Origin: Levilactobacillus senmaizukei DSM 21775 = NBRC 103853
GTDB taxonomy: Bacteria; Bacillota; Bacilli; Lactobacillales; Lactobacillaceae
Length of the DNA: 64,000 nucleotides
NCBI RefSeq assembly: GCF_001592085.1
Contig: NZ_BCWD01000005.1
Location: forward strand, 1 to 64,000
Direction of reading: 5' to 3'
Shown here: positions 39,799 to 59,612 of the stretch, one piece after another
Layout: each line of letters starts with the position of its first letter
Numbering within the stretch: position 1 is the first letter of the stretch
Position numbers and translations under genes: made by a program
Notes under the pieces: model-generated
Database searches by the model: none
What the model was told of the DNA's origin: nothing
Seen by the model: the letters and a program-made list of their open reading frames with translations, nothing else

Positions 39799-41409
39799 TT
39801 ATTTCCAATAAGCATACTTATATTGAGCATCGCTCATCATGGTGTATTTCAACCCACCAACGGACTTAGACACTAAGTGTGCCTTGGCTTGTTGGTATAG
39901 TGGTACGAGGCCGGCTTGCTTCGTCACGTAGGTATCAGCTTCCTTCAGCATGTCCCACCGCTGTTGCGTGGTGTACTTGGAGGTATCATCAATCTGCTTC
40001 ATCAGATTACTGAAGTGCGCATTATCCCACTTGGTGAAGTTCACTGAACTCTTGCCATCAGCCATTTGTAAGAAGTCGGATGGGTCCCGCCAGTCGGTCG
40101 TCCAACCGTCGAGGTCGATGTCGTAGTCACCAGAAGCCCCCTTAGCTATCTGTTGTGCCAACGGCATGGACTTAATGGTTATGGTCAGGCCTGGCATGTA
40201 CTTTTGTGCCTGTTGTTGCAGGTATTGCGCCACATGCTTCTGTTCATCGGTATCGGCCGTCAGAAGTTCCAAATTGGCTTTTTTGATACCTAGTTCCTTC
40301 TTAGCTTGGTTCCAAAGAGTCGTGGCCTGCTTAGGATTGTAGCTTAGGAGGTTGCCTACGTCCTTAGAGAAGTCTTTGCCGGTAGTTGGGTCATTACCGT
40401 CCCCATAAGGAATGAGGCTCTTAGCGGCCGCTGAACCGTCTTGTAAGACGTTCTTGGTCAGGGTCTGCCGATTAACCACGTAGGAGAAGGCTTGCCGGAC
40501 CTTGGTATTGTGAGTCACGGTCTTCTTGTCGTTAAATTCCAGGAACCGCATGGAGCTCCCTAAGGTCTCCTTCAACTCCGGATTGTCGGCATTTTGCTTG
40601 ATATATTGACCGGAAAGGACGGTCTCTTGAACCTTGCCGGACTTGAACAAGCTGGAAGAGGTCCCCGGATCTTTCACAACTTGAACGTTAACCTTCTTAA
40701 TCTTCACGTTCTTAGCATTCCAGTACTGGTCGTTCTTCACGTAAGACCAGTTGTCGGATGAGCCACTCCAGCCCACCAACTTGTAGGCCCCTTCGGACAT
40801 GGTCTTGTCAGCAGAGGTCCCATACTTGCTCCCATACTTTTCAAATAAATCGGTCTTCATGGGATAAGCGGCGGTGGCTAGAATGTCGCCCAACCATGGT
40901 TGGGGCTTTGACAAGGTCATCTGTAACGTTGATTTATTAAGGGCCTTCACCCCTAAAGCTGAGGCGGGTTTCTTCCCAGCTTGAACATCATCATAGTTCT
41001 TCACAAACTTAAGCTTGTTAGCCACCTGCGACTTAGACTTCGGATTAACCTGCCAGTCAAAGGAGGTCACGAAGTCTTGGGCCGTGACGGGATCGCCATT
41101 TTGCCACTTCGCATTCTTCTTAATCTTGAAGGTATAGACGGTGCCGTTCTTGGTTGGCTTCACCACTTTAGTGGCCACTCCGGCAGCCACCTTACCATTC
41201 TTATCCAACGTATACAGCCCCTCAGCCGTCTGGGAAATCATGCTGGAACTGTTACTGTCGCCGGAGATGGCCGGATTGGCCGTGGCTGGGTTGCCCACGA
41301 TCGTCACGTTCAAATCCTTGTCCGCATTACTCTTGGCTGTGGTGGACCCACAACCGGCCAACGCTGCAACGGCTAATAGCCCAAATCCTAATCCGATAAA
41401 TTTTTTCAT
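39799..41409 (-). CDS. Oligopeptide-binding lipoprotein (OppA-like), T-box controlled
   Basis: 536 residues. Lipoprotein signal with lipobox LAGC (Cys20). Extracellular solute-binding protein family 5 (SBP_bac_5): YTFKIKKNAKWQNGDPVTAQDFVTS is the family signature at about 90-115, and LxxxADTDEQKHVAQYLQQQ and DLDGWTTDWRDPSDF follow. It captures peptides for an ABC importer; no permease or ATPase genes are near, so it must share the transporter of another locus. A T-box leader precedes it, so it should be made when a certain tRNA is uncharged. It is a more distant relative of the two lipoproteins at 50847 and 54886. Confidence 0.92.
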   Translation of the reverse strand: MKKFIGLGFGLLAVAALAGCGSTTAKSNADKDLNVTIVGNPATANPAISGDSNSSSMISQTAEGLYTLDKNGKVAAGVATKVVKPTKNGTVYTFKIKKNAKWQNGDPVTAQDFVTSFDWQVNPKSKSQVANKLKFVKNYDDVQAGKKPASALGVKALNKSTLQMTLSKPQPWLGDILATAAYPMKTDLFEKYGSKYGTSADKTMSEGAYKLVGWSGSSDNWSYVKNDQYWNAKNVKIKKVNVQVVKDPGTSSSLFKSGKVQETVLSGQYIKQNADNPELKETLGSSMRFLEFNDKKTVTHNTKVRQAFSYVVNRQTLTKNVLQDGSAAAKSLIPYGDGNDPTTGKDFSKDVGNLLSYNPKQATTLWNQAKKELGIKKANLELLTADTDEQKHVAQYLQQQAQKYMPGLTITIKSMPLAQQIAKGASGDYDIDLDGWTTDWRDPSDFLQMADGKSSVNFTKWDNAHFSNLMKQIDDTSKYTTQQRWDMLKEADTYVTKQAGLVPLYQQAKAHLVSKSVGGLKYTMMSDAQYKYAYWK

Positions 41410-41443
41410 TTTATAATCCCCTTTATTCTGCTCAATTTAAAAA

Positions 41444-41690
41444 GTCACCCATCCTCGTCAATCATCTCTGATCGACAAGGGCGAGTGACTCGCGGTACCA
41501 CCTTGTTTTTTACTTAGGAGTCAACCATAGCCGACTCACGTGAGGTAATGGTCACGGACCAGTGACGGCTACTCGTTTCACCGTCACGACGCGCCGATGC
41601 GTCCCACTTTCCGTTAGATTCGGCTTCCATCGTCCCGAACTCGCTGGCCTAACAATTGAAAATGGCTCTTCTGCGCTTTGTCGTAATTAT
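41444..41690 (-). promoter_or_regulatory. T-box leader upstream of the 39799 lipoprotein gene
   Basis: Contains the 14-base T-box core AAGGTGGTACCGCG (41491-41504, minus strand), an AGCGAG/GATGG distal stem I, a GTGACGG/CCGTCAC stem, and a terminator hairpin (41444-41489) followed by TTTTT. The antiterminator bulge reads UGGU, which fits a tRNA with discriminator A. Stem I is short and lacks a clear AGUA/GAA specifier loop, so the amino acid could not be read. Confidence 0.85.
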
Positions 41691-46718: not shown

Positions 46719-48734
46719 CTACGTCGTAGCCGCCTCCGGCTGTGGCGTGTGATTTAAAATGTCGATCAGCTGTTGCTTAACCTCGGCAACTGTTTTGTCC
46801 GGAATCTGGGTCGCGGCGTTGGACAAGTGGCCCCCACCACCCATGGCTTCCATGGTCAATTGAACGTTAATAACCCCGAGTGACCGTGCGGAGATCCCCA
46901 CTCGACCATCGGCCCGGCGCGTGACAACAAAGGAAGCATCCACACCAGACATATTCAACAGGTCATCGGCCGCCTGGGCAGCCGTCACGGGATCGTACGT
47001 CTGATCTTCTTCCCCAGTAATCAGGGCCATGTCTTCATTAACGAACTCAACCATTTCAATTAAATGATTGCGCTGTAGATAATTATCCACATTTTCTTTC
47101 ATATACTGTTGCAGCTCAACCGCATCGGCGCCGGCAGACCGCAGGTAACTGGCCGCATCAAAGGTCCGGGTCCCGGTCCGCAACGAAAAGTGCTTGGTGT
47201 CGACGAAAATTCCCGTCAACATCGCTGTAGCTTCCAGCTTATTAATCGGTTCGGCTTCTTGTGATTGATATTCAAACATTTCGGTAATCAACTCACAAGT
47301 TGAGCTAGCGTATGGTTCGATGTAAACCAACAGTGGGTTTTCAGGGAATTCTTCTCCCCGCCGGTGATGGTCAATGATCATGACCCGGTTCTCTAAGCGG
47401 TGGTACAAGTCAGCCGAAATGGAAATCGATGGCTTCGAATGGTCAACCATCAGCAACATACTCTGATCATTGGCTTTTTCCAAAGCTTCCTTAGGCGAAA
47501 TGATGGCGGCCTCGATGTCCGGATAGTCCTTCAGATTATCCAACAACCGTTGAACATCCGAGTGAACGGTTTCCTTGTCGAGAACAATCCAACAGGTCTT
47601 ATTATTCATCTTGGCAATCCGCCGAATCCCTAAACAAGCCCCTAATGAGTCCATGTCCGGTTGCGAATGCCCCTGAACAAAGACCTGGTCGGACTCGTTC
47701 ATTAATTCTTGCAGGGCTTGGGAAATCATCCGGGCCCGGACCCGCGTCCGTTTCTCCATGGGATTGGTTTTCCCACCATAATAGCGGGCTTCCTGATCAG
47801 CTGCCTTGACGACCACTTGGTCACCACCCCGGCCGAGTGCCAGGTCCAAATTACTTTGGGCTTGATCGGCCAGCTTATTCAGATTAGCGTCACCATACGC
47901 AATCCCGATACTTAACGTCAACGGAAAGTTTTGCTTGGATGTACTCTCACGAATGGTATCCAAGATCTTGAATTTATCCGTTTCGATTGCCGTCAACGAC
48001 TTCGCATAGGCCAAAATAAAGTAATGATCATCGTCCAACTGTTTAAGATACATATCAAACTGCTGAACCCAGGCCGATAATTCATTGGTCACATAGTTCC
48101 GCAAATTTGAAATGTCTTGGTCGGTCATTGATTGAGTGACTTCATCATAGTTATCCAAGAACACTTGACCAATCGCAATCTTTTCATCATCATATTGTTC
48201 CTGAATCAACTCATAGTGCGAGATGTCATAGAGGTAAAGGGTGTGAAAGTCCGGCTGAACGTACAGTGTAAAACGGTAATCCCGCCATTTCACCGTCGTC
48301 ATGGTCTTGGGCTCAGCATCATCCACCAGCTTGGCCAACTCGGGATCAACTTCCTCTAGCTCACGGTTCAGAATATCCGTATCGCCAAAAAAGTCTTGTA
48401 GGTAAGGGTTTACCCACTCGATTTGGTCGCTGTCTCCCAGAATCATGACACCTGGTGGCATCCGAATTAGGGCTTCTTGCTCCCCCTGCTGAATTCGAAA
48501 CGACAAGTCCGAGATATACTGTGTCGTATCGGCACCGATTTCCGCCATGGTATTGAAGGCGACTAAGGTCGCAATCCCTACCAGGACCAGAATCACAATC
48601 CCGAAGATCCAATTAAGCAGGAACGAAAGCACAATCCCTAAAATCGCTAGAACTGCCGTCATAATGGCGATGCCCCTCAAGCGCCGGTTCTGTAAAAACT
48701 CGGGCACATTAGCTCGCGAAAATAATTTATTCAT
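46719..48734 (-). CDS. gdpP: c-di-AMP phosphodiesterase GdpP
   Basis: 671 residues with the full GdpP plan. Two membrane helices (about 21-40 and 43-62), a degenerate PAS domain (about 85-170), a degenerate GGDEF domain (about 175-310), and DHH/DHHA1 domains with His356, Asp360 and Asp362 in GHSQPDMDS, Asp431 and the DHH triplet at 455-457. The late GGGGHLSNAATQ is the DHHA1 glycine motif. It hydrolyses c-di-AMP to pApA and so controls potassium and osmolyte balance and wall stress. Starts upstream of rplI; divergent from the TipA-like regulator. Confidence 0.96.
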   Translation of the reverse strand: MNKLFSRANVPEFLQNRRLRGIAIMTAVLAILGIVLSFLLNWIFGIVILVLVGIATLVAFNTMAEIGADTTQYISDLSFRIQQGEQEALIRMPPGVMILGDSDQIEWVNPYLQDFFGDTDILNRELEEVDPELAKLVDDAEPKTMTTVKWRDYRFTLYVQPDFHTLYLYDISHYELIQEQYDDEKIAIGQVFLDNYDEVTQSMTDQDISNLRNYVTNELSAWVQQFDMYLKQLDDDHYFILAYAKSLTAIETDKFKILDTIRESTSKQNFPLTLSIGIAYGDANLNKLADQAQSNLDLALGRGGDQVVVKAADQEARYYGGKTNPMEKRTRVRARMISQALQELMNESDQVFVQGHSQPDMDSLGACLGIRRIAKMNNKTCWIVLDKETVHSDVQRLLDNLKDYPDIEAAIISPKEALEKANDQSMLLMVDHSKPSISISADLYHRLENRVMIIDHHRRGEEFPENPLLVYIEPYASSTCELITEMFEYQSQEAEPINKLEATAMLTGIFVDTKHFSLRTGTRTFDAASYLRSAGADAVELQQYMKENVDNYLQRNHLIEMVEFVNEDMALITGEEDQTYDPVTAAQAADDLLNMSGVDASFVVTRRADGRVGISARSLGVINVQLTMEAMGGGGHLSNAATQIPDKTVAEVKQQLIDILNHTPQPEAATT

Positions 48735-48927
48735 GCTTGCTCCTCATCTGATTCATCTGGAAAAGTTTGTTCTAACCGATCTAATAATCGGACAGATTAT
48801 CTGCCGACTAAAATGTTACAAATGATAGGTTTATTTTATCACATTCACTGTCAATCACAAACTTTTACCAAGCTGCAAGCCGGAATGACGGGCTTACCAC
48901 AACTTTTCTAACAATTAAATTGGCGGC

Positions 48928-48958
48928 TTGACCTTGACGCCACGACAACCTTTATAGT
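48928..48958 (+). promoter_or_regulatory. MerR-type promoter of the TipA-like gene
   Basis: -35 TTGACC and -10 TATAGT with a 19-bp spacer containing the imperfect dyad CTTGACG-CCA-CGACAAC. The arrangement fits activation of its own promoter by the regulator. Confidence 0.65.
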
Positions 48959-48988
48959 AGGTTTACAGCAAGATTGGAGGTGGCCGCG

Positions 48989-49750
48989 ATGGCCTACAAT
49001 ATTCAGCAGCTCGCGGACCTGGCCGGCATCAGTTCCCGCACGTTACGTTACTATGATCAAATTGGCCTATTGATTGCCGACCGCAACCCGATCAATGGCT
49101 ACCGCGAGTATGCCGCAGATGCTGTGGATCGATTACAACTCATCCGGTACTTTCAAACCTTTGGTTTTAGTCTACAGGCCATTCAAGCCCTATTGGCTGA
49201 GTCACCCGCCAACCAGCTGACGGCACTGACCGATCAGCGCCGACGTCTGGCCGCCAAGCGCGACCACCTCACCACCCTGCTGAATACCCTGGACCGCACC
49301 TTAGCGGCCCAGCAAGGAGGTCCACAAATGTCCGATTCCGAAAAATTTGCCGCCTTTAAACGCGATCAGATCGCTACTAATGACCGTGAGTATGGTGCCG
49401 AGTCCCGACGACGCTATGGCAAAACTACTTTTGCGGCGAGCCAACAACGCTACGCCAGCTTGAGTGAATCTGATTACCAGGCCATGCAAGCAACCGAGCA
49501 ACAACTCTTCACGCAACTTAAACAGGTCACAACTACTGGTGATCTGGACAGTCCAGCGGCCAAGGCCGCCTACCAAGCCCACCGTGACTGGCTATGTTTC
49601 ACGTGGAACAATTATTCAACGGCGGCTCATCGGGGTCTCGCCCAACTCTATCTGGATGACGCCCGATTTACCGCCTACTACAACGACCGCGTAGGCCACC
49701 CTAATGCCGCCAAAACACTGGTCGCGATCATCAACCACTACGCCCAATAG
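48989..49750 (+). CDS. MerR-family regulator with TipAS drug-binding domain
   Basis: 253 residues from the ATG reading MAYNIQQLAD, eight bases after GGAGGTG. MerR winged helix at 1-70 (SSRTLRYYDQIGLLIADR, GYREYAADAVDRLQLI), coiled coil at about 75-105, and a TipAS-like domain at about 115-250 (AESRRRYGKT, then WNNYSTAAHRGLAQLYLDDARFTAYYND). TipAS domains bind thiopeptides and other bulky drugs and switch the promoter on. No target gene is next to it apart from itself. A parS-like 16-mer lies within the gene at 49595-49610. Confidence 0.9.
   Translation: MAYNIQQLADLAGISSRTLRYYDQIGLLIADRNPINGYREYAADAVDRLQLIRYFQTFGFSLQAIQALLAESPANQLTALTDQRRRLAAKRDHLTTLLNTLDRTLAAQQGGPQMSDSEKFAAFKRDQIATNDREYGAESRRRYGKTTFAASQQRYASLSESDYQAMQATEQQLFTQLKQVTTTGDLDSPAAKAAYQAHRDWLCFTWNNYSTAAHRGLAQLYLDDARFTAYYNDRVGHPNAAKTLVAIINHYAQ
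49595..49610. promoter_or_regulatory. parS-like site inside the TipA-like gene
   Basis: TGTTTCACGTGGAACA, one base from consensus. In a coding region it could be chance, but ParB sites within genes are common. Confidence 0.55.
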
Positions 49751-49800
49751 ACCATTTAACCCCCTGAGACTAGTCTTAGGGGGTTAATATTTGTTAATTA

Positions 49801-50265
49801 TTATTTAGTAGGATCTTTGATCTGGCTCCAAGGAATCACGTGCAGCATCCAAGAAATCCCATACTTATCAGTGAAATGGCCCATCTTGCCACCCCAGAAT
49901 TGCGTTTCAAATGGCATGTCGATGGTCACTTCGCCACTAGCAGCCAGTTTGTCGTAAAAGGCTTCGGCAGCGGCCACACTGGTCGCGTCATCACCATCGA
50001 TATCCAGAATAATATCAACTTGATTTGAGGGCTTAACCGGTCCCCGAAAACTGTCGGCACATTGGAAGCTCATGCCCAACACCGTAAAACCACCATGCAT
50101 GGTCATCGCCTCGAGATCGGCGCCTTCTGGCAAATGAAATTGTTTGGCCTGCTCCGGCTGTGGGCTGAAGCGATAAACATCGGTCGCACCGAAAACTCGC
50201 TGATAATAGGCAAGCGCCTCTTTAGCATTTGTAAAAGCAAAACTAGGAATAATTCGGGATTGCAT
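49801..50265 (-). CDS. VOC-superfamily (PhnB-like) protein
   Basis: 154 residues from the ATG reading MQSRIIPSFAFTN, with TGAGGAG upstream. The PhnB/3-demethylubiquinone-9 3-methyltransferase-like layout is seen: NAKEALAYYQRVFGATDVYRF at the start and WGGKMGHFTDKYGISWMLHV at the end. The VOC fold serves metal-dependent lyases, dioxygenases and drug-binding resistance proteins; the function here is not known. Convergent with the TipA-like gene. Confidence 0.82.
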   Translation of the reverse strand: MQSRIIPSFAFTNAKEALAYYQRVFGATDVYRFSPQPEQAKQFHLPEGADLEAMTMHGGFTVLGMSFQCADSFRGPVKPSNQVDIILDIDGDDATSVAAAEAFYDKLAASGEVTIDMPFETQFWGGKMGHFTDKYGISWMLHVIPWSQIKDPTK

Positions 50266-50443
50266 AAATAACCATCTCCTCAATTTGGATAATCTCAGTA
50301 TAACCACCCACATCACCGAATGGTAGTAAATGCCCTCAATCGTTATTGCTAAGAAACTGTTTATTCCGCTCAAAACAAAAATAAAAATTTTTCCTACATA
50401 CTCTGTAACCAATCAATTGAGCCCATCTTTTTCAAATTTACCT

Positions 50444-50471
50444 TTGACTTTCAGGAATTACATGCTAAACT
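50444..50471 (+). promoter_or_regulatory. Promoter of the first T-box module
   Basis: -35 TTGACT and -10 TAAACT with a 16-bp spacer. The second module has nearly the same promoter (54470-54497). Confidence 0.65.
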
Positions 50472-50499
50472 AGCAATCATTAACAAACGATTAGAAAAT

Positions 50500-50801
50500 G
50501 AAAAAGTGATGACGAAGACTAGTATCGTCGCTGGTCATTGTTAGCGAGCCCGGTTAAGTGCAAGCGGGTCAAGGCTAGCGACGCGAACTCCCTTCTGAAC
50601 TGTCAGCTGAAGTCATAGTAAGCCCGACCGGTAGCAACCGTTATCAATGCAGTGAATCGCGACCAATGGCCCCCTCTGCAGGACCTAGCCTGTCAGATCT
50701 CGCCTCTAGGAGTGTCGCCGTTCATGTTCAAAGTTAAAAGTTAAGGTGGTACCGTGCATACGCGCCCTTACGGAGAAGTTTATTCCGTAGGGGCGCTTTT
50801 T
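50500..50801 (+). promoter_or_regulatory. T-box leader with a probable Leu (CUC) specifier
   Basis: The T-box core AAGGTGGTACCGTGC is at 50743-50757, and the terminator hairpin at 50762-50796 is followed by TTTTT. Stem I has the loop-E motif AGTA (50521-50524) opposite GAA (50585-50587), held by the TCGTCGCT/AGCGACG helix. The next triplet, CTC (50588-50590), is the specifier, as in the known glyQ T-box layout. The UGGU bulge pairs with a discriminator A, which tRNA-Leu has. Confidence 0.85.
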
Positions 50802-50846
50802 GTTTATCACAACAATTCTAATCGTTTGCCCTAGGAGGTTATTCTT

Positions 50847-52451
50847 ATGCATCGTTCAGTATTTATGATTCCAATTGCTTTTATTATCGCCGTCACACTC
50901 AGTGCTTGTGGTAATGCCGCGGGCAATACCAGCAAAAATCGGGCGCTGAATGTCACATTAGCCGACGAACCCGCCACCACTGACCCCAACAAGGCCACCG
51001 ATACCAATAGTGGTAGCCTGATCTATCAAACGATGGAGGGGCTCTATAAGTACGACAAACACAACAAGATCGTGCCCGGGGTTGCCCGTAAGGTGGTTAA
51101 ACCCACGAATCACGGCAAAACCTACACCTTCACGCTAAAAAAGAATGCTAAATGGGCCAATGGCCAACGTGTCACGGCCCAAGACTTTGTCACCTCGCTC
51201 CAGCGAATGGTGAACCCCAAGACCAAGGCCCAATATGCCAGCGTCCTTTCCGCGTTTAAGAATTATGACGCCATTCAAAAGAGTCAGATGGATCCCTCGA
51301 AAATAGGCGTCAAGGCCCTCAGCAAGACCAAGCTCCAATTTCAATTGACCAAGGCCGTTCCTTACTTTAACGACCTGGTTGCCATTGAATACTATCCACT
51401 GAACACCGCCGCCGTTAAGAAATACGGCGCCAAATACGGGACCAACGCCGACAAAACCATGGCCAACGGTCCCTACAAGTTGGTCGGTTGGACAGGTAGT
51501 AATAACGCTTGGCACTACGTGAAGAATCCCTACTACTGGAACGCCAAGAATGTGAAGATTAATCGTGTTAATGTGGCCGTTACCAAAGATTCCAGCACCG
51601 CTGCCAACCTGTTCAAAGCCGGTAAAGTTCAAGAAACTACGGTAACTGGCCAATATATCCGGGCGAATGCCAATAGCAAGGATATGCAGACCCACCTGTT
51701 AGGTCGGATGCAATTACTCTACTTCAATCACCAAAAATCGGCTAGCAACTCCGAAAACCTGCGTCAGGCCGTGTCCTATGTGATTAATCGGAAAACCATT
51801 ACGAACGATGTCCTGCAAGACGGCTCTAAGCCGGCGATGAGCGCCATTCCTCGCGGCGACCAGACCAACCCTAAGACCGGCCAAGACATGGCCAGCGAGG
51901 TCGGTAACCTGTTGCCAACTGACGTACAAAAGGCCAAGCAATACTGGGCCAAGTACCTGAAGGAAAAGGGGAAGTCCAAGGTTACACTGACTGTTTTAAC
52001 CGACGATTCCGATGAAGATAAACACGTTGGCACCTACATGCAAGCCGTCATGGAGAAGAACTTCAAGGGTCTGACCGTTAACTTGACCTCACTCCCCCAT
52101 GCCCAACACGTTGCGCGCGACTTCGCCGGTGACTTCGAAATTAACCTGATTGGTTGGTCAACCAACTGGCTCGATTCTGCCGATTACTTGGGGTTGGCCA
52201 CTAAATCCAACTCCGTCAACTTCACACACTGGAATGACGCCAAATACAACCAGCTCTACACGACGGCAAACGCCAAGACGGGTCTGGCGCGCTACAACGG
52301 TTTGATGGCCACCGACAAATACCTGATGAAGATTAAGGGTTATGTCCCCGTCTACCAACCTTCCGAAGCCAAGTTAATCAGTCACCAGGTGGGCGGCCTG
52401 CACTACTCCCTGTTGAAAGAGGCTCAGTATCAATACGCCTACTGGAAATAA
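50847..52451 (+). CDS. Oligopeptide-binding lipoprotein of module 1
   Basis: 534 residues, lipobox LSAC with Cys21. SBP_bac_5 family: YTFTLKKNAKWANGQRVTAQDFVTSL signature at about 92-117, and DLVAIEYYPLN and INLIGWSTNWLDSADYLG further on. AGGAGG precedes the ATG. It should bind peptides outside the membrane and pass them to an Opp-type importer encoded elsewhere. The T-box leader in front links its expression to lack of charged tRNA, read here as Leu. The amidohydrolase gene begins 53 bp downstream and is probably in the same transcript. Confidence 0.92.
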   Translation: MHRSVFMIPIAFIIAVTLSACGNAAGNTSKNRALNVTLADEPATTDPNKATDTNSGSLIYQTMEGLYKYDKHNKIVPGVARKVVKPTNHGKTYTFTLKKNAKWANGQRVTAQDFVTSLQRMVNPKTKAQYASVLSAFKNYDAIQKSQMDPSKIGVKALSKTKLQFQLTKAVPYFNDLVAIEYYPLNTAAVKKYGAKYGTNADKTMANGPYKLVGWTGSNNAWHYVKNPYYWNAKNVKINRVNVAVTKDSSTAANLFKAGKVQETTVTGQYIRANANSKDMQTHLLGRMQLLYFNHQKSASNSENLRQAVSYVINRKTITNDVLQDGSKPAMSAIPRGDQTNPKTGQDMASEVGNLLPTDVQKAKQYWAKYLKEKGKSKVTLTVLTDDSDEDKHVGTYMQAVMEKNFKGLTVNLTSLPHAQHVARDFAGDFEINLIGWSTNWLDSADYLGLATKSNSVNFTHWNDAKYNQLYTTANAKTGLARYNGLMATDKYLMKIKGYVPVYQPSEAKLISHQVGGLHYSLLKEAQYQYAYWK

Positions 52452-52504
52452 GCCTGATTACTATTAGCTGTTACCCTAATCGCTTTATATAGGAGGAATT
52501 GTCT

Positions 52505-53692
52505 ATGACTCAAACCACTTTTAAAAATTTCACGCTCTTTGATGGGGCCCTGGATCAAAATCAGGCAGACGCCTGGTTCGTCGTTGATGATCCGACCGGT
52601 AAGCTGGTCGATCGCGGTCAAGGAACACCGCCCGCGGCCGATCGAACCGTTGACTTCGCTGGTCAGTATGTCATGCCGGGTTTCTTCAATGTGCACACCC
52701 ACATTACCAGTGACCCCGATAGTGCCTCCGGTAACCTCGGTCGCTCGGAAACCGTGGCGACCGTCATGGCCGTCCGAAATCTACGGACCCTTCTCCGATC
52801 TGGCGTCACCTACATTCGTCAATGCGGAACCGACTTCGACGTTGATATCAAGCTCAAGCAACTCCAACGTGCCGGTCAACTTCCCCATACCCCCCACATG
52901 ATGACCTCTGGCCGTGCATTTTCAATGACCGGTGGCCATGGCGATATGCCAGGCTTTGCCTACCTCGTCGATTCTCCAGATGAGATGCGTAAACGCATCC
53001 GCCAGGCCTTTAAGGCCGGTGCCGAAAGCATCAAGATCATGGCGACAGGCGGCGTCATGACCCCGAACGACTTCATGGAAGATCCCCAGTTTTCCGAGGC
53101 GGAAATGAGGACGGCCGTTGAAGAGGCTCACCATAAGCGGCGTGTGATCGCGGCCCATGCGGAAGGGAATCCCGGCATTCAAAATGCCCTCGATGCTGGC
53201 GTTGATACGATTGAACATGGCTTCTACACCACTGCTGCAGAGGCAAAACAGATGATCCAACAGGGGACGTACATCACCCCCACCCTCGTTGCCGAAGCTG
53301 CCGTGGCCATTCAGGGCCAGGGCGTGCTACCCGATTGGGAAGTCAAAAAGGCCGCCGATGCCCTCGATGACACCTTTGAGAACCTCACGCAGGCCTTTAT
53401 AGCCGGGGTCAAATTCACCTGTGGCACCGACGCCGGCACACCTTTTAATGGTTTCGAGCGCACCCCTGACGAATTTGGCTACCTGACCAAACTAGGCATG
53501 ACCCCAGCACAAGCCTACCAATGTTCCAGTATCAACTCCGCCAAGATGATGGGCGTGGACGCGGAATATGGCACGCTGGAGATTGGTAAATTTGCCGATT
53601 TTCAAGTGCTCACTGCCGATCCGCTAGCAGACACGGTCGCCGTCACCCAGACCGACAAACAGGTCTTCATGGGTGGTCATCGGGAATGCTAA
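52505..53692 (+). CDS. Metal-dependent amidohydrolase (Xaa-Pro/Xaa-Arg dipeptidase-like) of module 1
   Basis: 395 residues from the ATG reading MTQTTFKNFT, after AGGAGGAATTGTCT. Amidohydrolase superfamily TIM barrel: metal ligands His64 and His66 (NVHTH), Lys177 (SIKIMATGG, probably carbamylated), His218 (AAHAEGNPG), His238 (IEHGF) and Asp309 (CGTDAG). The group closest in look is the imidazolonepropionase-like/prolidase-like branch that hydrolyses C-terminal amide bonds in dipeptides. No signal peptide, so it is cytoplasmic. With the lipoprotein it may form a peptide capture-and-cleave pair; the substrate is inferred. Confidence 0.88.
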   Translation: MTQTTFKNFTLFDGALDQNQADAWFVVDDPTGKLVDRGQGTPPAADRTVDFAGQYVMPGFFNVHTHITSDPDSASGNLGRSETVATVMAVRNLRTLLRSGVTYIRQCGTDFDVDIKLKQLQRAGQLPHTPHMMTSGRAFSMTGGHGDMPGFAYLVDSPDEMRKRIRQAFKAGAESIKIMATGGVMTPNDFMEDPQFSEAEMRTAVEEAHHKRRVIAAHAEGNPGIQNALDAGVDTIEHGFYTTAAEAKQMIQQGTYITPTLVAEAAVAIQGQGVLPDWEVKKAADALDDTFENLTQAFIAGVKFTCGTDAGTPFNGFERTPDEFGYLTKLGMTPAQAYQCSSINSAKMMGVDAEYGTLEIGKFADFQVLTADPLADTVAVTQTDKQVFMGGHREC

Positions 53693-53701
53693 TCACTGTA
53701 T

Positions 53702-53752
53702 AAAAAAGTCCAGCGTCAACCTAATCAAAATTAGGCTGGCACTGGCTTTTCA
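53702..53752. terminator. Terminator between amidohydrolase 1 and the 53769 gene
   Basis: Long imperfect hairpin with CCTAAT/ATTAGG at its tip, A-rich left and T-rich right; can act on both strands. Confidence 0.75.
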
Positions 53753-53768
53753 TTTAATATAACCCGGG

Positions 53769-54116
53769 TTAAGCCTCCGGTATAACATGATAAGCATGGT
53801 AACGCCCATGCACCCGCCGCACAGCAAATTCACGAACCGTAAAGGAACTATCACTAGAAGTGTAACCTGGTTGAATCAGGTAATGAGTGAATTCACGCCG
53901 ACTAACACCATGTCGTCCTTCAATTAAGTATGGCATCTGAGCCTTAATCCCCTGGGGATGTGTCTGCATAGCCATAATCGGATGGCCATCTAACACGATT
54001 TTACGCCGAACGGCTCCCTGTGGACTGGTCGTGCCTAAGGTCGTTGTGCCCCATGCCAAGACCAGTAATCCCGCTGCTAAACCGCCACACCACCATATCC
54101 GTCGTTGCTGTCTCAT
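53769..54116 (-). CDS. Small exported or membrane-anchored protein
   Basis: 115 residues. N-terminal hydrophobic segment (about 8-28, WWCGGLAAGLLVLAWGTTTLG) as anchor or signal. The rest is soluble, with IVLDGHPIMAMQTHPQGIKAQMPYLIEG, and a basic stretch REFAVRRVHGRYHAYHVIP. GAGGGGTG precedes the ATG. It lies between the two T-box modules, on the other strand. No family is recognised. Confidence 0.6.
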   Translation of the reverse strand: MRQQRRIWWCGGLAAGLLVLAWGTTTLGTTSPQGAVRRKIVLDGHPIMAMQTHPQGIKAQMPYLIEGRHGVSRREFTHYLIQPGYTSSDSSFTVREFAVRRVHGRYHAYHVIPEA

Positions 54117-54469
54117 CTCTTCACCCCTCGGTATTCCTATTATTAAGAATACTGATAAAGTACTAAAAAATCAATATTGACGAACTTTTATTAATATTTA
54201 TTCATTTTCAATCATATATTGGGCTACTGTAGCTGAATGACCCTTTATTTCCAACTTTCTTCATTATCGGCCGCCGATTCCCCCATCACCACTCGATATA
54301 ACCTAGCCCCTTCCACCTCACCTAAAATAATACTAAATTATTTTTCAAGTCCATTATTCCTGTCGGCAACGACTTCTAAACCAAAGCTACCAATGACTTA
54401 GCCTTGGTTTGGTCATCACACTTTTGCTTTCATTTTTGCTCAACCCAGTCATTAATTTCAGAAAAATCG
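54117..54469. other. Intergenic region before module 2
   Basis: AT-rich, about 350 bp, with no open frame of note; it carries the upstream region of the 53769 gene. Confidence 0.45.
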
Positions 54470-54497
54470 TTGACAAACTTAATTTCGGTGCTAAACT
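54470..54497 (+). promoter_or_regulatory. Promoter of the second T-box module
   Basis: -35 TTGACA and -10 TAAACT, preceded by TGC, with a 16-bp spacer. Confidence 0.7.
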
Positions 54498-54524
54498 AGC
54501 AATTATTAACAATTGATTAGAAAA

Positions 54525-54845
54525 TTAAAAAGTGATGATGAAGTCCAGTAGTGGTGGACGAACTTGTTAGCGAACCCGGTCAAGTGCAAGCGGGTCAAGG
54601 TCCCTACCACGAACATCCCTTCGGAGCTGTTAGCTGAAATCCAAGTAAGTTTATACCGGGAGCATCCGTTATCAATGCAGTGAATCGCGGGAGTGGTCAT
54701 TTCCCAAATGTTCCTAGCTTTTGGGGCTTGTCCTCTAGGAGCCCGCCGTTCATAGATGAGGCTACTTTTTGAGTAGCAAAAACTAAGGTGGTACCGTGCG
54801 AACAGCACCCTTACAGAGAATCATTTTCTGTAGGGGTGCTTTTTA
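54525..54845 (+). promoter_or_regulatory. T-box leader with a probable Ile (AUC) specifier
   Basis: T-box core AAGGTGGTACCGTGC at 54785-54799; terminator hairpin at 54804-54840 with TTTTTATTTT. Stem I has AGTA (54547-54550) and GAA (54611-54613), joined by GTGGT/ACCAC and GGAC/GTCC. The following bases are CATCC: spacing from the lower GAAG/CTTC helix and the UGGU bulge favour ATC (Ile, discriminator A); the triplet directly after GAA is CAT (His, whose tRNA has discriminator C). Confidence 0.82.
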
Positions 54846-54877
54846 TTTTCTCTGCTAATCAATTGAATCTAGGAGGT

Positions 54878-54893
54878 TGTTTCACATGAAACA
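54878..54893. promoter_or_regulatory. parS-like site over the start codon of the module 2 lipoprotein
   Basis: TGTTTCACATGAAACA, one base from the parS consensus, overlapping the spacer between the ribosome binding site and the ATG and the first codons. Confidence 0.6.
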
Positions 54894-56487
54894 TTTTGTT
54901 TGGGCAGCGCCCATGTCAGTATTATTACTATTATCTCTCAGCGCCTGTGGTCAAGCGTCCGGTAGTACCAACAAGAACCGTACGCTCAATGTCACACTGG
55001 CCAGTGAACCCGCCACCGCCGACCCTAACAAGTCGACTGACACCAACAGTGGGAGCGTTATTTCCCAAACGATGGAAGGCCTCTATACCTATAACAAGGA
55101 TGGCAAGGTTGTCGCCGGGGTGGCCACTAAGGTGGTCAAACCAACGAACAACGGAAAGACTTATACCTTTAACCTAAAAAAGAATGCCAAATGGGCCAAC
55201 GGTCAGCAAGTGACCGCCCAAGACTTTGTGACTTCTTTGCAACGTTGGGTGGACCCGAAGACCAAGGCCCAGTACGCCAACCTCCTCTCGGCCTTTAAGA
55301 ATTACGATGCCGTCCAAGCCGGCAAAGTCTCACCCGACAAGTTAGGGGTCAAGGCCCTCAGCAAAACCAAGGTTCAATTTCAATTAAACCAGGCCGTACC
55401 TTACTTCGATGACCTAGTCGCTGAATATTATCCTTTAAACACCGCAGCCGTTAAGAAATACGGCGCCAAGTATGGAACCAGCGCCGCCAAGACGGTCAAC
55501 AACGGGGCCTACAAGCTAACCGGCTGGACCGGGAGCAATTCTACCTGGAACTACGTCAAGAATCCTCACTATTGGGATACCAAGAACGTTAAGATCAAAA
55601 AAGTTAACGTCAACGTTACCAAGGATGAAAGTACGGCGGCCAATCTCTTCAAGAGCGACAATGTCCAGGAGACCACGGTCAGCAGTCAATATGTTCGGTC
55701 AAACGGCAATGACAAGCAACTCCACACCCATTTGTTAGGCCGACTCCAATATCTCTATGTTAATAGTAAAAAGAAGTCCACGAATTCGGAAAATTTGCGC
55801 CAGGCGGTCTCCTATGTTGTCGACCGGCAACAATTAACTAGCAAAGTCCTCCAAGATGGTTCTAAGCCCGCGCTGAGTGCCGTACCGCGTGGTGATCAAG
55901 TCAATCCCAAGACTGGCAAGGATATGGCCACCGAAGTTGGGAATCTCTTACCACACGACGTCACCAAGGCCAAAGCCTATTGGCAGAAATACTTAAAGGA
56001 AACCGGAAAATCTAAAGTCACTCTGAATCTCCTAACCGACGATACGGATGATGACAAACACGTGGGCACCTACATGCAATCGGTTATGGAAAAGAACTTC
56101 AAGGGACTGACCGTTACCGTCACCTCAATCCCCCATGCCCAACACGTGGCGCGTGACTTCGCGGGCACGTTTGAACTTAACTTAACGGGCTGGTCCTCAA
56201 GCTGGTTAGACTCCGGCGATTACCTGGGATTAGCAGCCAAGTCCAACACGGTTAACTTCACCGGTTGGAATGATGATCAATTCAACCAGCTACTTGCTTC
56301 CGCTAACAATAAGACGGGCCAAGCCCGTTATGATGGCTTAGTTTCCGCCGACAAGCGGTTAATGGAAGTCAAAGGTTACTTACCACTTTACCAACCTTCA
56401 CAAGCCAATTTAGTTAGCAGCAAGGTCGGTGGTTTGAAATACAACCTGGTTCACACCGCCAAATACCAATACGCCTACTGGAAATAG
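54886..56487 (+). CDS. Oligopeptide-binding lipoprotein of module 2
   Basis: 533 residues from the ATG reading MKHFVWAAPM, nine bases after AGGAGG; a TTG three codons earlier is inside that site. Lipobox LSAC with Cys21. SBP_bac_5 signature YTFNLKKNAKWANGQQVTAQDFVTSL near 91-116; the C-terminal half has ELNLTGWSSSWLDSGDYLG. Closely similar to the 50847 protein along its whole length, so the modules arose by duplication. The T-box in front has a different specifier, so the two copies answer to different amino acids. No permease is nearby. Confidence 0.92.
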   Translation: MKHFVWAAPMSVLLLLSLSACGQASGSTNKNRTLNVTLASEPATADPNKSTDTNSGSVISQTMEGLYTYNKDGKVVAGVATKVVKPTNNGKTYTFNLKKNAKWANGQQVTAQDFVTSLQRWVDPKTKAQYANLLSAFKNYDAVQAGKVSPDKLGVKALSKTKVQFQLNQAVPYFDDLVAEYYPLNTAAVKKYGAKYGTSAAKTVNNGAYKLTGWTGSNSTWNYVKNPHYWDTKNVKIKKVNVNVTKDESTAANLFKSDNVQETTVSSQYVRSNGNDKQLHTHLLGRLQYLYVNSKKKSTNSENLRQAVSYVVDRQQLTSKVLQDGSKPALSAVPRGDQVNPKTGKDMATEVGNLLPHDVTKAKAYWQKYLKETGKSKVTLNLLTDDTDDDKHVGTYMQSVMEKNFKGLTVTVTSIPHAQHVARDFAGTFELNLTGWSSSWLDSGDYLGLAAKSNTVNFTGWNDDQFNQLLASANNKTGQARYDGLVSADKRLMEVKGYLPLYQPSQANLVSSKVGGLKYNLVHTAKYQYAYWK

Positions 56488-56543
56488 CCTGCAACCAAGA
56501 TCTGAATTTAAACTCGAAACACTAATTATAGGAGGACATTTAT

Positions 56544-57728
56544 ATGACTAAAAAAACATTCTTCAATTTTACCCTTTTTGATGGTACCAATGACCAAAAC
56601 CAAGCCAACGCCTGGTTTACCGTCGACACAGACACGGGGAAACTCGTCGACCGTGGCCAAGGAACGCCCGCTCAGACGGACGAACAGGTAGACTTAGATG
56701 GTCAGTATGTCATGCCCGGCTTCTTCAACGTCCATACCCACGTTTCCGCTAATCCCCAGAAGCCAAACGGCGACGACAAGTCCGAATCAGAAACCGCCGT
56801 CATGGCCTGGACGAACCTGCAAGCATTGCTCAAGTCCGGGGTAACCTACACCCGGGGCTGTGGTAACGAATACGACGTCGACGTGAAGCTCAAGCGGCTG
56901 CAAAAATCCGGTCAATTGTCACATACGCCGCGGATGTTAACCTCCGGCAAGGCCTTCTCAATGACCGGTGGCCACGGGGACTCCCCTCACGGTGGTCATG
57001 CCGTGGATTCTCCCGATGAAATGCGCAAAGCCGTGCGGACAGCATTTAAAAATGGCGCCGAAAGCGTGAAGGTTATGGCAACTGGTGGTGTCATGACGCC
57101 TAATGACTTCATGGAGGACGCCCAACTATCGGTCGCCGAAATGCATGTCGCCGTTGAAGAGGCCCACCACAAGCGCCGCGTGGTTGCCGCCCATGCCGAA
57201 GGGAATCCTGGGATCCAAAATGCCCTCGATGCCGGCGTAGACTCCGTCGAACATGGTTTCTACGTCAATGAAGCCGAGGCAAAACAAATGGTTAAGCAAG
57301 GCACCTACCTGACGCCAACGCTCATCGCCGAATGGGTAATCCCCGAATACGGTAATGGTGACCTACCCGATTGGGAAGTCAAGAAGGCGGCCGATGCCTT
57401 GGACGACACCTACGTCAATATGCGACGTGCATTCAAGCTGGGCGTCAAGTTCACCTGTGGAACTGATGCGGGGACCCCATACAACGGCTTCGATAAGACA
57501 CCCGAAGAATTTGGCCTCTTAACCAAGCTGGGGATGACCAATGCCGAAGCCTACCAATGCTCGACCCTGAACTCCCCTAAGTTGTTGGGAGTTGCCGATG
57601 AATATGGCACCTTGGAAGTTGGCAAGTTCGCCGATTTCCAAGTCTTGAAGAAAGATCCTCTGGCCGATACGGCCAACGTGGTCCAGGAAGACAAGCAAGT
57701 TTACCTGGGTGGGCACCGCGAGTTCTAA
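56544..57728 (+). CDS. Metal-dependent amidohydrolase of module 2
   Basis: 394 residues, paralogue of the 52505 enzyme. Same ligands: His64 and His66 (NVHTH), Lys in SVKVMATGG, His in AAHAEGNPG and VEHGF, Asp in CGTDAGTP. The main differences lie in loops that may line the active site: AWTNLQALLKSGVTYTRGCGNEYDV against module 1, and the region EWVIPEYGNGDLPDW. Probably cytoplasmic. It starts 56 bp after the lipoprotein gene, with AGGAGG upstream, and ends with a strong terminator. Different loops suggest different peptide preference, which is inference. Confidence 0.88.
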   Translation: MTKKTFFNFTLFDGTNDQNQANAWFTVDTDTGKLVDRGQGTPAQTDEQVDLDGQYVMPGFFNVHTHVSANPQKPNGDDKSESETAVMAWTNLQALLKSGVTYTRGCGNEYDVDVKLKRLQKSGQLSHTPRMLTSGKAFSMTGGHGDSPHGGHAVDSPDEMRKAVRTAFKNGAESVKVMATGGVMTPNDFMEDAQLSVAEMHVAVEEAHHKRRVVAAHAEGNPGIQNALDAGVDSVEHGFYVNEAEAKQMVKQGTYLTPTLIAEWVIPEYGNGDLPDWEVKKAADALDDTYVNMRRAFKLGVKFTCGTDAGTPYNGFDKTPEEFGLLTKLGMTNAEAYQCSTLNSPKLLGVADEYGTLEVGKFADFQVLKKDPLADTANVVQEDKQVYLGGHREF

Positions 57729-57733
57729 GTCTA

Positions 57734-57787
57734 AAAAAACAATGCGTCAGCATGGGATCCGACCCCCAGTGCTGGCGCATTGTTTTT
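57734..57787. terminator. Terminator shared by module 2 and the dehydrogenase
   Basis: AAAAACAATGCG arms and complement with an inner CAGCA/TGCTG stem, A-run before and TTTTTT after; acts for both strands. Confidence 0.85.
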
Positions 57788-57797
57788 TGATCTTTAT

Positions 57798-58559
57798 TTA
57801 GGCAGTGACTCCACCATCGGCGGTCACCGTCGTGCCATTAATAAACTTCGAATCGTCCGACCCTAAGAACAAAGCCAACTTGGCAATATCTTCGGGTTCA
57901 CCCATCGGATTGTTGCTAGGATCACCGGTCGCCTTGATTCCCATGGGATCGATGTCGGTCAACGTTTTAGCAATATTGGTATTCACACCACCTGGGGCAA
58001 TCGCGTTAGCCCGAATATTACTGAACATCCCTAAGGTTGCCGCGATATTTTGTGTTAGCCCAACCAGACCATGCTTCGAAGCCACGTAGGCCGCACCACC
58101 CCAGGAACCCCCGAGGCCCCCAATCGAAGCATTGTTCACGATAACCCCGCCGCTAGGGTTCCCTTGCATAATCTTAACGGCATCATGGATGGCTAAAAAC
58201 GGCCCCGTCAGGTTAACTGCCATAATTCGATCCCATAGATCCTTATCAGCCGTTGCCACCGTCTTGAAATTATCCATAATACCGGCATTATTGACCAGAA
58301 TATCAATCGTGTCATAGGTCTTCACCGCAAAGTCCACCATGTTCGCAATATCTTCGCTCTTGGACATATCGGTCACCACAGCGCTGACCGTGCCATCGGC
58401 CGCCTTAATACCGTCGACCACCACTTTCAGACTATCGGCATCAAAGTCCGCGGCCACAACCTTGGCCCCTTCTGCCGCGTAGAGTTCGGCAATCGCTTTA
58501 CCCATCCCGGATGCCGCACCCGTCACAATCGCAACTTTACCGTCAAGCTTCTTTGTCAT
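57798..58559 (-). CDS. Short-chain dehydrogenase/reductase
   Basis: 253 residues from the ATG reading MTKKLDGKVA, with GGAGGCG upstream. Classical SDR: cofactor motif TGAASGMGKA at 14-23, Asp of the DFDADS loop (NAD preference), NNAGIMD, Ser in NNASIGG and the YVASKHG pair Tyr/Lys, with PGGVNTNIAK after. It reduces or oxidises a small alcohol or carbonyl substrate; the specific substrate is not evident. The promoter overlaps a catabolite-control site, so expression probably drops when a preferred sugar is present. Confidence 0.88.
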   Translation of the reverse strand: MTKKLDGKVAIVTGAASGMGKAIAELYAAEGAKVVAADFDADSLKVVVDGIKAADGTVSAVVTDMSKSEDIANMVDFAVKTYDTIDILVNNAGIMDNFKTVATADKDLWDRIMAVNLTGPFLAIHDAVKIMQGNPSGGVIVNNASIGGLGGSWGGAAYVASKHGLVGLTQNIAATLGMFSNIRANAIAPGGVNTNIAKTLTDIDPMGIKATGDPSNNPMGEPEDIAKLALFLGSDDSKFINGTTVTADGGVTA

Positions 58560-58593
58560 GTTCACACGCCTCCATGGTTTTAGAATTAACCAC

Positions 58594-58622
58594 AATGTAG
58601 CATGGACCGTAATCGCTTTCAA
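58594..58622 (-). promoter_or_regulatory. Promoter with overlapping cre-like site of the dehydrogenase
   Basis: -35 TTGAAA and -10 TACATT with a 17-bp spacer on the minus strand. The overlapping 14-mer TGAAAGCGATTACG (58608-58621) matches the CcpA consensus TGNAANCGNTTNCA in all but the last base. Confidence 0.65.
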
Positions 58623-58765
58623 CGTAGCGAATCATTTCAAATTTGCAAGTTTTTTGCTCATTAGTGCACAAAAAGACTTGAATCCTCGCCATTCCCGTCG
58701 ACAAGCTCCTCCCAAAAAGCGTATAAAAAAAAGACCAGCCACATTGTGGTTGGTCTTCATGATGA

Positions 58766-59002
58766 CTACTCTTCGCTTACGAATGGCATTAAGCCCATGA
58801 TCCGTGAACGCTTGATAGCGATCGTTAACTTACGTTGGTTCTTGGCACTAGTGCCAGTAACCCGGCGAGGTAAAATCTTACCCCGTTCGGAGATAAACCG
58901 ACGTAATAAGTCAGTGTCTTTGTAATCAATGTATTCGATGTGGTTGGCTGCAATAAAGTCAACCTTACGACGGCGACGGCCGCCACGACGTTGTCCTGCC
59001 AT
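58766..59002 (-). CDS. rpsR: 30S ribosomal protein S18
   Basis: 78 residues, the family length. Basic start [14 protein letters not shown], then [43 protein letters not shown], the S18 signature. Binds the 30S platform as a dimer with S6. Third gene of the rpsF-ssb-rpsR operon, with 28 bp to ssb. Confidence 0.98.
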
Positions 59003-59030
59003 GAGAAATTCCCTCCTCGTTATTTAGTGA

Positions 59031-59612
59031 TTAGAACGGTAAATCATCGTCTGAAATGTCAATCGAATCACCGGAGTTAGCAAACGGATCGGCCGAGTTA
59101 TTGTTCCCAGCATTTCCTTGGTTGCCACCTGCAGGATTATTATTCGTAGTCGGTGCTGCACTGGAAGCAGGCGCCGGATTACCACTCATAAATGGATTGT
59201 CATTCTGATTCTGATTTGGAGCCTGAGGAGCATTATTCGTGGAACCAGCGTTGTAATTACCACCGGCGTTGCCACCCGCACTGCGATTGCTCGAGCGTGG
59301 TTCCAAGAACGAAAAGTTCTCGACGACAACTTCGGTCACGTAAACACGTTGGCCTTGCTGATTTTCGTAATTCCGGGTCTGAATCCGACCTTCAATCCCC
59401 ACAAGGGAACCCTTGTGCATGAAGTTCGCAAAGTTTTCCGCGGCTTTGCGCCAGATGACACAACTTACGAAATCAGCTTCCCGTTCACCTTGTTGGTTGG
59501 TGAACCGCCGATCAACGGCCAACGTAAAGGTGGCAACAGCAGCACCGCCTTGGGTGTAGCGTAAGTCAACATCCCGTGTCAGTCGGCCAGTAAGTACTAC
59601 TCGGTTGATCAT
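59031..59612 (-). CDS. ssb: Single-stranded DNA-binding protein
   Basis: 193 residues. The OB-fold covers about 1-105 ([20 protein letters not shown], then [39 protein letters not shown]). A Gly/Asn/Gln-rich flexible linker follows, and the acidic tip DISDDDLPF binds partner proteins. The middle gene of the S6-SSB-S18 operon, so it is coregulated with ribosome synthesis. Essential for replication and repair. Confidence 0.98.

Follow-up and report, generated by a model that had tools for sequence, protein, structure and literature searches.

Tandem T-box leaders ahead of peptide-binding lipoprotein and amidohydrolase genes in Levilactobacillus senmaizukei: candidate operons for leucine and isoleucine salvage

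Two tandem units and their relatives

We analyzed a window of 64,000 nucleotides of Levilactobacillus senmaizukei DSM 21775 = NBRC 103853 (assembly GCF_001592085.1, contig NZ_BCWD01000005.1, positions 1 to 64,000), which carries two tandem units on the + strand. Each unit consists of a promoter-like site, a T-box leader, a gene for a family-5 (OppA-like) lipoprotein and a gene for an amidohydrolase. An earlier note, made from the letters alone, had placed these twin units at 50444-57728, and they lie where it put them: position 50444 opens the −35 box of unit 1, position 57728 closes the stop codon of the unit 2 amidohydrolase gene, and neither amidohydrolase has a visible signal peptide. The features, in window coordinates, are as follows.

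50444..50471, +: unit 1 promoter-like site, TTGACT-16-TAAACT with TG ahead of the second hexamer (consensus match only)
50500..50772, +: unit 1 T-box leader, leucine type (RF00230, 83.3 bits, E 1.2e-18; stem covariation)
50588..50590, +: unit 1 specifier codon, read as CUC (Leu), immediately 3′ of the specifier-loop GAA (leader comparison)
50762..50796, +: unit 1 leader intrinsic terminator (terminator scan and folding)
50847..52451, +: unit 1 OppA-like lipoprotein, SBP_bac_5, lipobox LSAC, 534 aa (Pfam, alignment)
52505..53692, +: unit 1 amidohydrolase, dipeptidase-type, 395 aa, no signal peptide seen (Pfam, homology)
54470..54497, +: unit 2 promoter-like site, TTGACA-16-TAAACT (consensus match only)
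54526..54815, +: unit 2 T-box leader, isoleucine type (RF00230, 94.1 bits, E 2.5e-19)
54615..54617, +: unit 2 specifier codon, read as AUC (Ile) (leader comparison)
54804..54840, +: unit 2 leader intrinsic terminator (terminator scan and folding)
54886..56487, +: unit 2 OppA-like lipoprotein, SBP_bac_5, 533 aa (Pfam, PDB relatives)
56544..57728, +: unit 2 amidohydrolase, 394 aa, predicted fold matching the C-terminal dipeptidases 3mtw and 2qs8 (Pfam, AlphaFold2)

Between the units, the lipoproteins are 72% identical and the amidohydrolases 71%. The two genes of a unit are separated by 53 bases (unit 1) or 56 bases (unit 2), and by eye each amidohydrolase gene is preceded by its own ribosome-binding-like sequence. 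The unit 2 amidohydrolase is 98% identical to its L. tangyuanensis counterpart; against this species, dN/dS is 0.01-0.05 for all four genes, which look to be under purifying selection.

To follow the units across genomes, we used 36 loci that encode an enzyme relative (identified below by L numbers), found in GTDB genomes through two short peptide patterns taken from the two paralogues. Relatives occur in 25 of the 40 genera sampled and, in a wider sample, in 136 of 397 Lactobacillaceae genomes, including 17 of the 25 listed members of the genus. The order T-box, lipoprotein, amidohydrolase is present at 23 of the 36 loci, in Levilactobacillus, Secundilactobacillus and one unclassified lineage; the recurrence of the pair behind a T-box in other Lactobacillaceae, on which the earlier note had staked its proposal, is thus found. 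All 19 Levilactobacillus-type loci (L038-L055 and L063) have an upstream lipoprotein gene on the same strand with a T-box motif preceding it, and a second unit is visible upstream in 10 of them. The full triad also occurs in Secundilactobacillus (L056, L058 and L059) and in the unclassified L060. At L057 (3586-6287, Secundilactobacillus malefermentans), an isoleucine-type T-box is followed by two amidohydrolase genes and no lipoprotein gene. In 23 of the 33 units measured, the lipoprotein and enzyme genes lie 14-137 bases apart. Among the loci where no T-box is found, the enzyme gene adjoins a family-5 binding protein gene at L061, L068 and L070, and an M20 peptidase gene at L062 and L065.

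Several loci have peculiarities of their own. The lipoprotein frame is broken into two overlapping open reading frames (ORFs) at L045 (3678-5304) and L063 (4291-5918), possibly by assembly error, with leader and enzyme intact. The lipoprotein-enzyme gaps reach 277-707 bases at L043-L046, L050, L052 and L055, and the gaps printed for L044, L046 and L050 contain several copies of a repeat of about 100 bases with GTTAAGCGCAGG and CACGTTTC, apparently a family of intergenic repeats in these genomes. The Lacticaseibacillus-type loci L062 (3510-7170) and L065 (5854-9563) have three tandem amidohydrolase copies behind the M20 peptidase gene, with no T-box near.

T-box leaders, specifier codons and the change between them

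Both leaders look like genuine T-boxes. The score of the unit 2 leader exceeds the RF00230 gathering cut-off of 93 bits, and that of the unit 1 leader falls below it; the E-value of the latter was obtained in a search of the whole genome, and 19 of the 24 T-boxes of the L. senmaizukei genome likewise score under the cut-off. Across 29 related leaders (27 distinct; the set leaves out the unit 1 leader of L038, whose locus is truncated, and the five leaders of L056-L060), stem I has the AGUA/GAA specifier loop, an invariant lower helix and invariant specifier surroundings, and an upper helix that covaries. Over the 27 distinct leaders, the stem I helix adjoining the specifier loop has 89.5% of its cells paired versus 73.1% in shuffled alignments, and a covariation score of 0.458 versus 0.144 (0 of 500 shuffles in both cases); on sliding, 34-51% are paired. 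Pairs changed on both sides (6 versus 5.2 in shuffles) and pair types (18 versus 15.6) do not clearly exceed the shuffles, and the folding energies of single stem I sequences are no better than those of shuffled ones (z = −1.07 and 0.19). Both leaders contain GGTGGTACC as the UGGN bulge motif, followed by the intrinsic terminator, and the two terminators have folding energies of −25.9 and −26.6 kcal/mol (z = −6.3 and −7.7). The antiterminator did not appear in simple folds of the region, and the numbers of promoter-like and terminator-like sites in the region are about the shuffled mean.

The specifier region divides the leaders into types. Among 34 leaders (2 in the window and 32 at other loci), 19 carry GAACATCCCTTC, 11 carry GAACTCCCTTC and 4, all from Secundilactobacillus, have another form. 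When lipoproteins are grouped by their tree, GAACTCCCTTC stands before the unit 1 lipoproteins in 11 of 11 readable leaders and GAACATCCCTTC before the unit 2 lipoproteins, which are the other Levilactobacillus-type ones, in 19 of 19; across all 30 Levilactobacillus-type leaders read, each type has one and the same specifier stretch. The two types differ at the specifier by a single A.

For unit 2, the relatives point to the codon. Read by eye, the Secundilactobacillus and UBA5807 specifiers are GAA-A-AUC (L056 and L060), UAA-AUC (L057), GAA-G-AUC (L058) and GAG-G-AUC (L059). Because the preceding base varies, AUC is the constant part, and comparison of the leaders gives AUC, isoleucine, as the unit 2 specifier. 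A histidine codon, CAU, was considered for unit 2 and rejected, since the base preceding AUC is C, A or G among relatives.

For unit 1, we compared the leader with those of aminoacyl-tRNA synthetase genes, using loci for 30 of 41 leuS and 30 of 41 serS matches within the family, of which 25 and 28 have an upstream T-box motif. GAACTC is present in 21 of the 25 leuS leaders, with GAACTT in the remaining 4, and in 1 of the 28 serS leaders. A program that fits the lower helix was used solely for the leuS comparison: it recovers the expected loop for both window leaders, for L056 and L060, for the genome's own trpS and pheS and for 13 of the 25 leuS leaders, and gives no fit or a wrong one for the genome's own tyrS, valS, leuS, asnA, brnQ, serS and ileS, for L057-L059 and for all 28 serS leaders. 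In those 13 leuS leaders, CUC lies directly 3′ of GAA (a single base stands between it and the lower helix in 11, and none in 2), and the unit 1 loop, GAACUCC ahead of a CUUC strand, has the same layout. On both counts the unit 1 specifier is read as CUC, leucine. The leucine and isoleucine specificities suggested by the earlier note are thereby supported. A DNA search with leuS leaders found matches in 7 of 121 genomes, 5 of them within the genus.

The earlier note had also proposed a duplication followed by a change in T-box specificity, and the lipoprotein tree bears this out. The 12 unit 1 lipoproteins form one group (SH-aLRT 96), and the tree requires one specifier change, the outgroups having the AUC form (their states were entered by eye). 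The isoleucine unit seems to be ancestral, and the leucine unit derived from it by a one-base deletion. The amidohydrolase tree initially put the unit 1 enzyme of the window among the unit 2 enzymes; holding the 12 unit 1 enzymes together is neither shown nor rejected by it (p-AU 0.513).

Binding proteins, permeases and the amidohydrolase

Both lipoproteins match SBP_bac_5 (E 7e-67 and 7e-65; 226 and 220 bits, cut-off 32.4) and have an LSACG lipobox. They share the family, the lipobox and a length of about 530 aa with OppA and PrgZ, and differ from them in having no recognized adjoining permease gene and in being paired with an intracellular hydrolase. No permease or ATPase gene is present among the ten proteins scanned across 46719-59612, in line with the earlier note's remark that a permease is missing, and oligo_HPY ATPases occur only on two other contigs of the genome, C18 and C26. 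These hold two Opp ATPase sets with permease-like neighbors (permeases named by reading), accompanied by three binding proteins on C18 and one on C26. Two apparently complete Opp permeases encoded elsewhere could serve the orphan lipoproteins.

Five of the 11 family-5 binding proteins in the genome lie behind a T-box: those of the two units, one at 39799-41409 of the window and two on contig C7. In the stretches read around the latter three, no peptidase gene was recognized (by reading). The third T-box of the window (41474-41690), within 39799-41690 on the − strand, has an ambiguous specifier and precedes an orphan OppA-like lipoprotein 50% identical to that of unit 2. On contig C7, by eye, the specifier is AUG (Met) at L015 and ambiguous, UGG or AUG, at L011.

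Both enzymes match Amidohydro_1 (E 1e-47 and 3e-40; 163 and 139 bits, cut-off 25), and H64, H66, K176, H217, H237 and D308 are invariant in 31 of 31 aligned rows. We take these residues to be the metal ligands (an HxH motif, a Lys, two His and an Asp) and the enzyme to belong to the amidohydrolase superfamily as a COG1228-type dipeptidase. The AlphaFold2 model of the unit 2 enzyme is confident (pLDDT 90.4, with residues 181-188 under 50), and its best structural matches are 3mtw (Z 50.0) and 2qs8 (Z 49.0), together with related prolidases, arginine carboxypeptidases and ochratoxin amidohydrolases. By profile, the nearest PDB relatives are 2qs8 in first place, then 3be7 (an arginine carboxypeptidase), 9kov and 3mtw; by phmmer, the top match is 2qs8 for the unit 2 enzyme and 3mtw for the unit 1 enzyme. 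With these relatives and all six expected ligands kept, the dipeptidase-type assignment made in the earlier note agrees with the comparison.

In the sections of PMC11342369 consulted, relatives of the enzyme release a C-terminal residue with varying preferences, some for Arg/Lys or Pro; its Table 1 lists 2QS8 as Sgx9355b, an Xaa-Hyd dipeptidase, and Sgx9355e is said to accept dipeptides whose last residue is Ile, Leu, Phe, Tyr, Val, Met, Trp or Thr. A C-terminal hydrophobic preference suits isoleucine and leucine T-boxes, as a match of family habit rather than a proof of substrate. The unit enzymes share with 2qs8 and Cc2672 (3mtw) the fold (Z 49-50), the metal ligand positions and the expected release of a C-terminal residue. 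In contrast to both, they are only about 30% identical to them, follow a peptide-binding lipoprotein under a T-box and have a substrate that is predicted. The fixed differences between unit 1 and unit 2 enzymes are few and conservative, mostly I/L/M/V swaps, and do not reveal a substrate preference.

Peptide salvage and its alternatives

The C-terminal domain of IlvC was found in 0 of 25 genomes of the genus, L. senmaizukei included (one of the 25 is only 72% complete), and in 14 of 14 controls. Because IlvC was not found, leucine, isoleucine and valine should have to be imported, and these bacteria should need branched-chain amino acids from outside. We consider it fairly probable that each unit is an amino-acid-starvation operon in which a T-box controls the salvage of isoleucine or leucine from peptides; such a mechanism is the best explanation of the homology and the regulation taken together.

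From the homologies and the leaders, we infer the following course of events. Uncharged tRNA-Leu (unit 1) or tRNA-Ile (unit 2) would accumulate and base-pair with both specifier codon and UGGU bulge, the terminator would not form, and lipoprotein and amidohydrolase would be made together. The lipoprotein would catch peptides at the membrane and deliver them to either of the two Opp permeases, and the intracellular metal-dependent amidohydrolase would free C-terminal Leu or Ile from dipeptides, other small peptides or N-acyl amino acids. An ancestral isoleucine unit would have been duplicated in Levilactobacillus, and one copy would have become the leucine unit on losing an A from its specifier loop (GAACAUCCC to GAACUCCC). 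More tentatively, the units may form part of a peptide-salvage regulon organized per amino acid: several orphan lipoproteins, five of the 11 family-5 proteins in the genome, would each have a separate T-box ahead of them, in two cases together with a C-terminal dipeptidase. Specificity would be reassigned when a unit is duplicated and one copy loses a base, which alters the codon as well as the register (Ile AUC to Leu CUC).

Several findings weigh against salvage of these two amino acids. The closest structures include Arg/Lys carboxypeptidases, and the best match of the unit 1 enzyme is 3mtw (Arg), so that the substrate is not readable from homology. The NCBIfam equivalog for Xaa-Pro dipeptidase, NF051886, gives the enzymes 231 and 226 bits versus a cut-off of 500; they appear to be related to it and are not this equivalog. 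The unit 1 enzyme of the window (52505-53692) is long-branched in the tree, with Ala in place of the Trp264 of most relatives. No T-box was found near the enzyme gene at 12 of the 36 loci, in other genera (7 checked with Rfam, 5 by motif only), and sampling by peptide pattern under-represents distant relatives, so that 23 of 36 should not be taken as the frequency across relatives in general. In 10 of 33 units the lipoprotein-enzyme gap is 183-707 bases, partly filled with repeats, and cotranscription is less sure there.

The units might instead serve general peptide scavenging, with T-boxes that sense leucine or isoleucine hunger, broad lipoproteins and a generic dipeptidase for which the amino acid of the T-box is no special product. 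We regard this as unlikely, though a serious competitor. The varying C-terminal preferences of the family, the scarcity of fixed differences between the two enzymes and the T-box-less relatives beside SBP_bac_5 or M20 peptidase genes are all compatible with it; the invariance of the specifier stretch inside either type, over all 30 Levilactobacillus-type leaders read, and, in the published material consulted, the C-terminal hydrophobic residues reported for 2qs8, the first profile relative, speak against it. Far less probable is that the lipoprotein is a signal receptor akin to the pheromone binder PrgZ, with the enzyme clearing the signal and the T-box acting as a timing device. PrgZ is indeed the second best PDB relative of the unit 2 lipoprotein (E 9e-86), but the other leading matches bear the names of oligopeptide- or dipeptide-binding proteins, neither a regulator gene nor a peptide gene was recognized within the units, and the enzymes at L057 follow an isoleucine-type T-box without a lipoprotein.

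It is also improbable that unit 1 senses serine, through UCC one base further along (GAAC-UCC). The UGGU bulge fits A73, yet UGGU is present in 26 of 28 serS T-boxes, and with T in 23 of 25 leuS leaders the variable UGGN base cannot separate leucine from serine. However, the distribution of GAACTC and the position of CUC directly after GAA both follow leuS (the latter from a helix fit that failed on serS), GAACTCC is found in 0 of 28 serS and 0 of 25 leuS leaders, and by the helix fit UCC would touch the helix in unit 1.

Salvage of leucine and isoleucine under T-box control would extend a known pattern. As far as the consulted part of Wels 2008 (PMC2494555) goes, T-box control of transport genes and switching of T-box specificity are established, and duplicated T-boxes with changed specificity are described in lactobacilli. 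The likeness to those transport regulons lies in a tRNA-sensing leader over an amino acid supply gene; the difference is that Table 1 of that paper lists transporter families, whereas the targets here are an orphan peptide-binding lipoprotein and a dipeptidase-type enzyme. The main text of PMC2494555, supplements aside, contains no words that start with peptide, opp, peptidase or amidohydrolase. PMC3766115 counts 291 T-boxes in Lactobacillaceae, and no opp or amidohydrolase was found there outside the supplements and the RegPrecise tables, where these T-boxes may be listed. In the literature searched for such a pairing, we did not meet a lipoprotein-dipeptidase pair under paired isoleucine and leucine T-boxes. 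If the proposal is true, T-box control would reach beyond free amino acids into nutrition by peptides, and a single two-gene unit would link the sensing of tRNA with a receptor for peptides and a peptidase. The T-box codon would then predict the product of the enzyme, making the function of an uncharacterized amidohydrolase and an orphan OppA directly testable. The pair would also be a natural example of how one deletion can change the specificity of a riboswitch, here in food bacteria where IlvC was not found.

Elsewhere in the genome, contig C2 carries two adjacent brnQ-like genes (L008 and L009, named by reading) with separate T-boxes, whose specifiers by eye are AUC (Ile) and GUU (Val). 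They resemble the units as adjacent paralogues with different specifiers and differ from them as carriers of free amino acids. Between the two units of the window, an ORF of 115 aa without a Pfam match lies on the opposite strand (53769-54116, −). On contig C7, a Cas9-like ORF (L174, 7673-9001; named by reading) adjoins the lipoprotein gene with the Met-type T-box.

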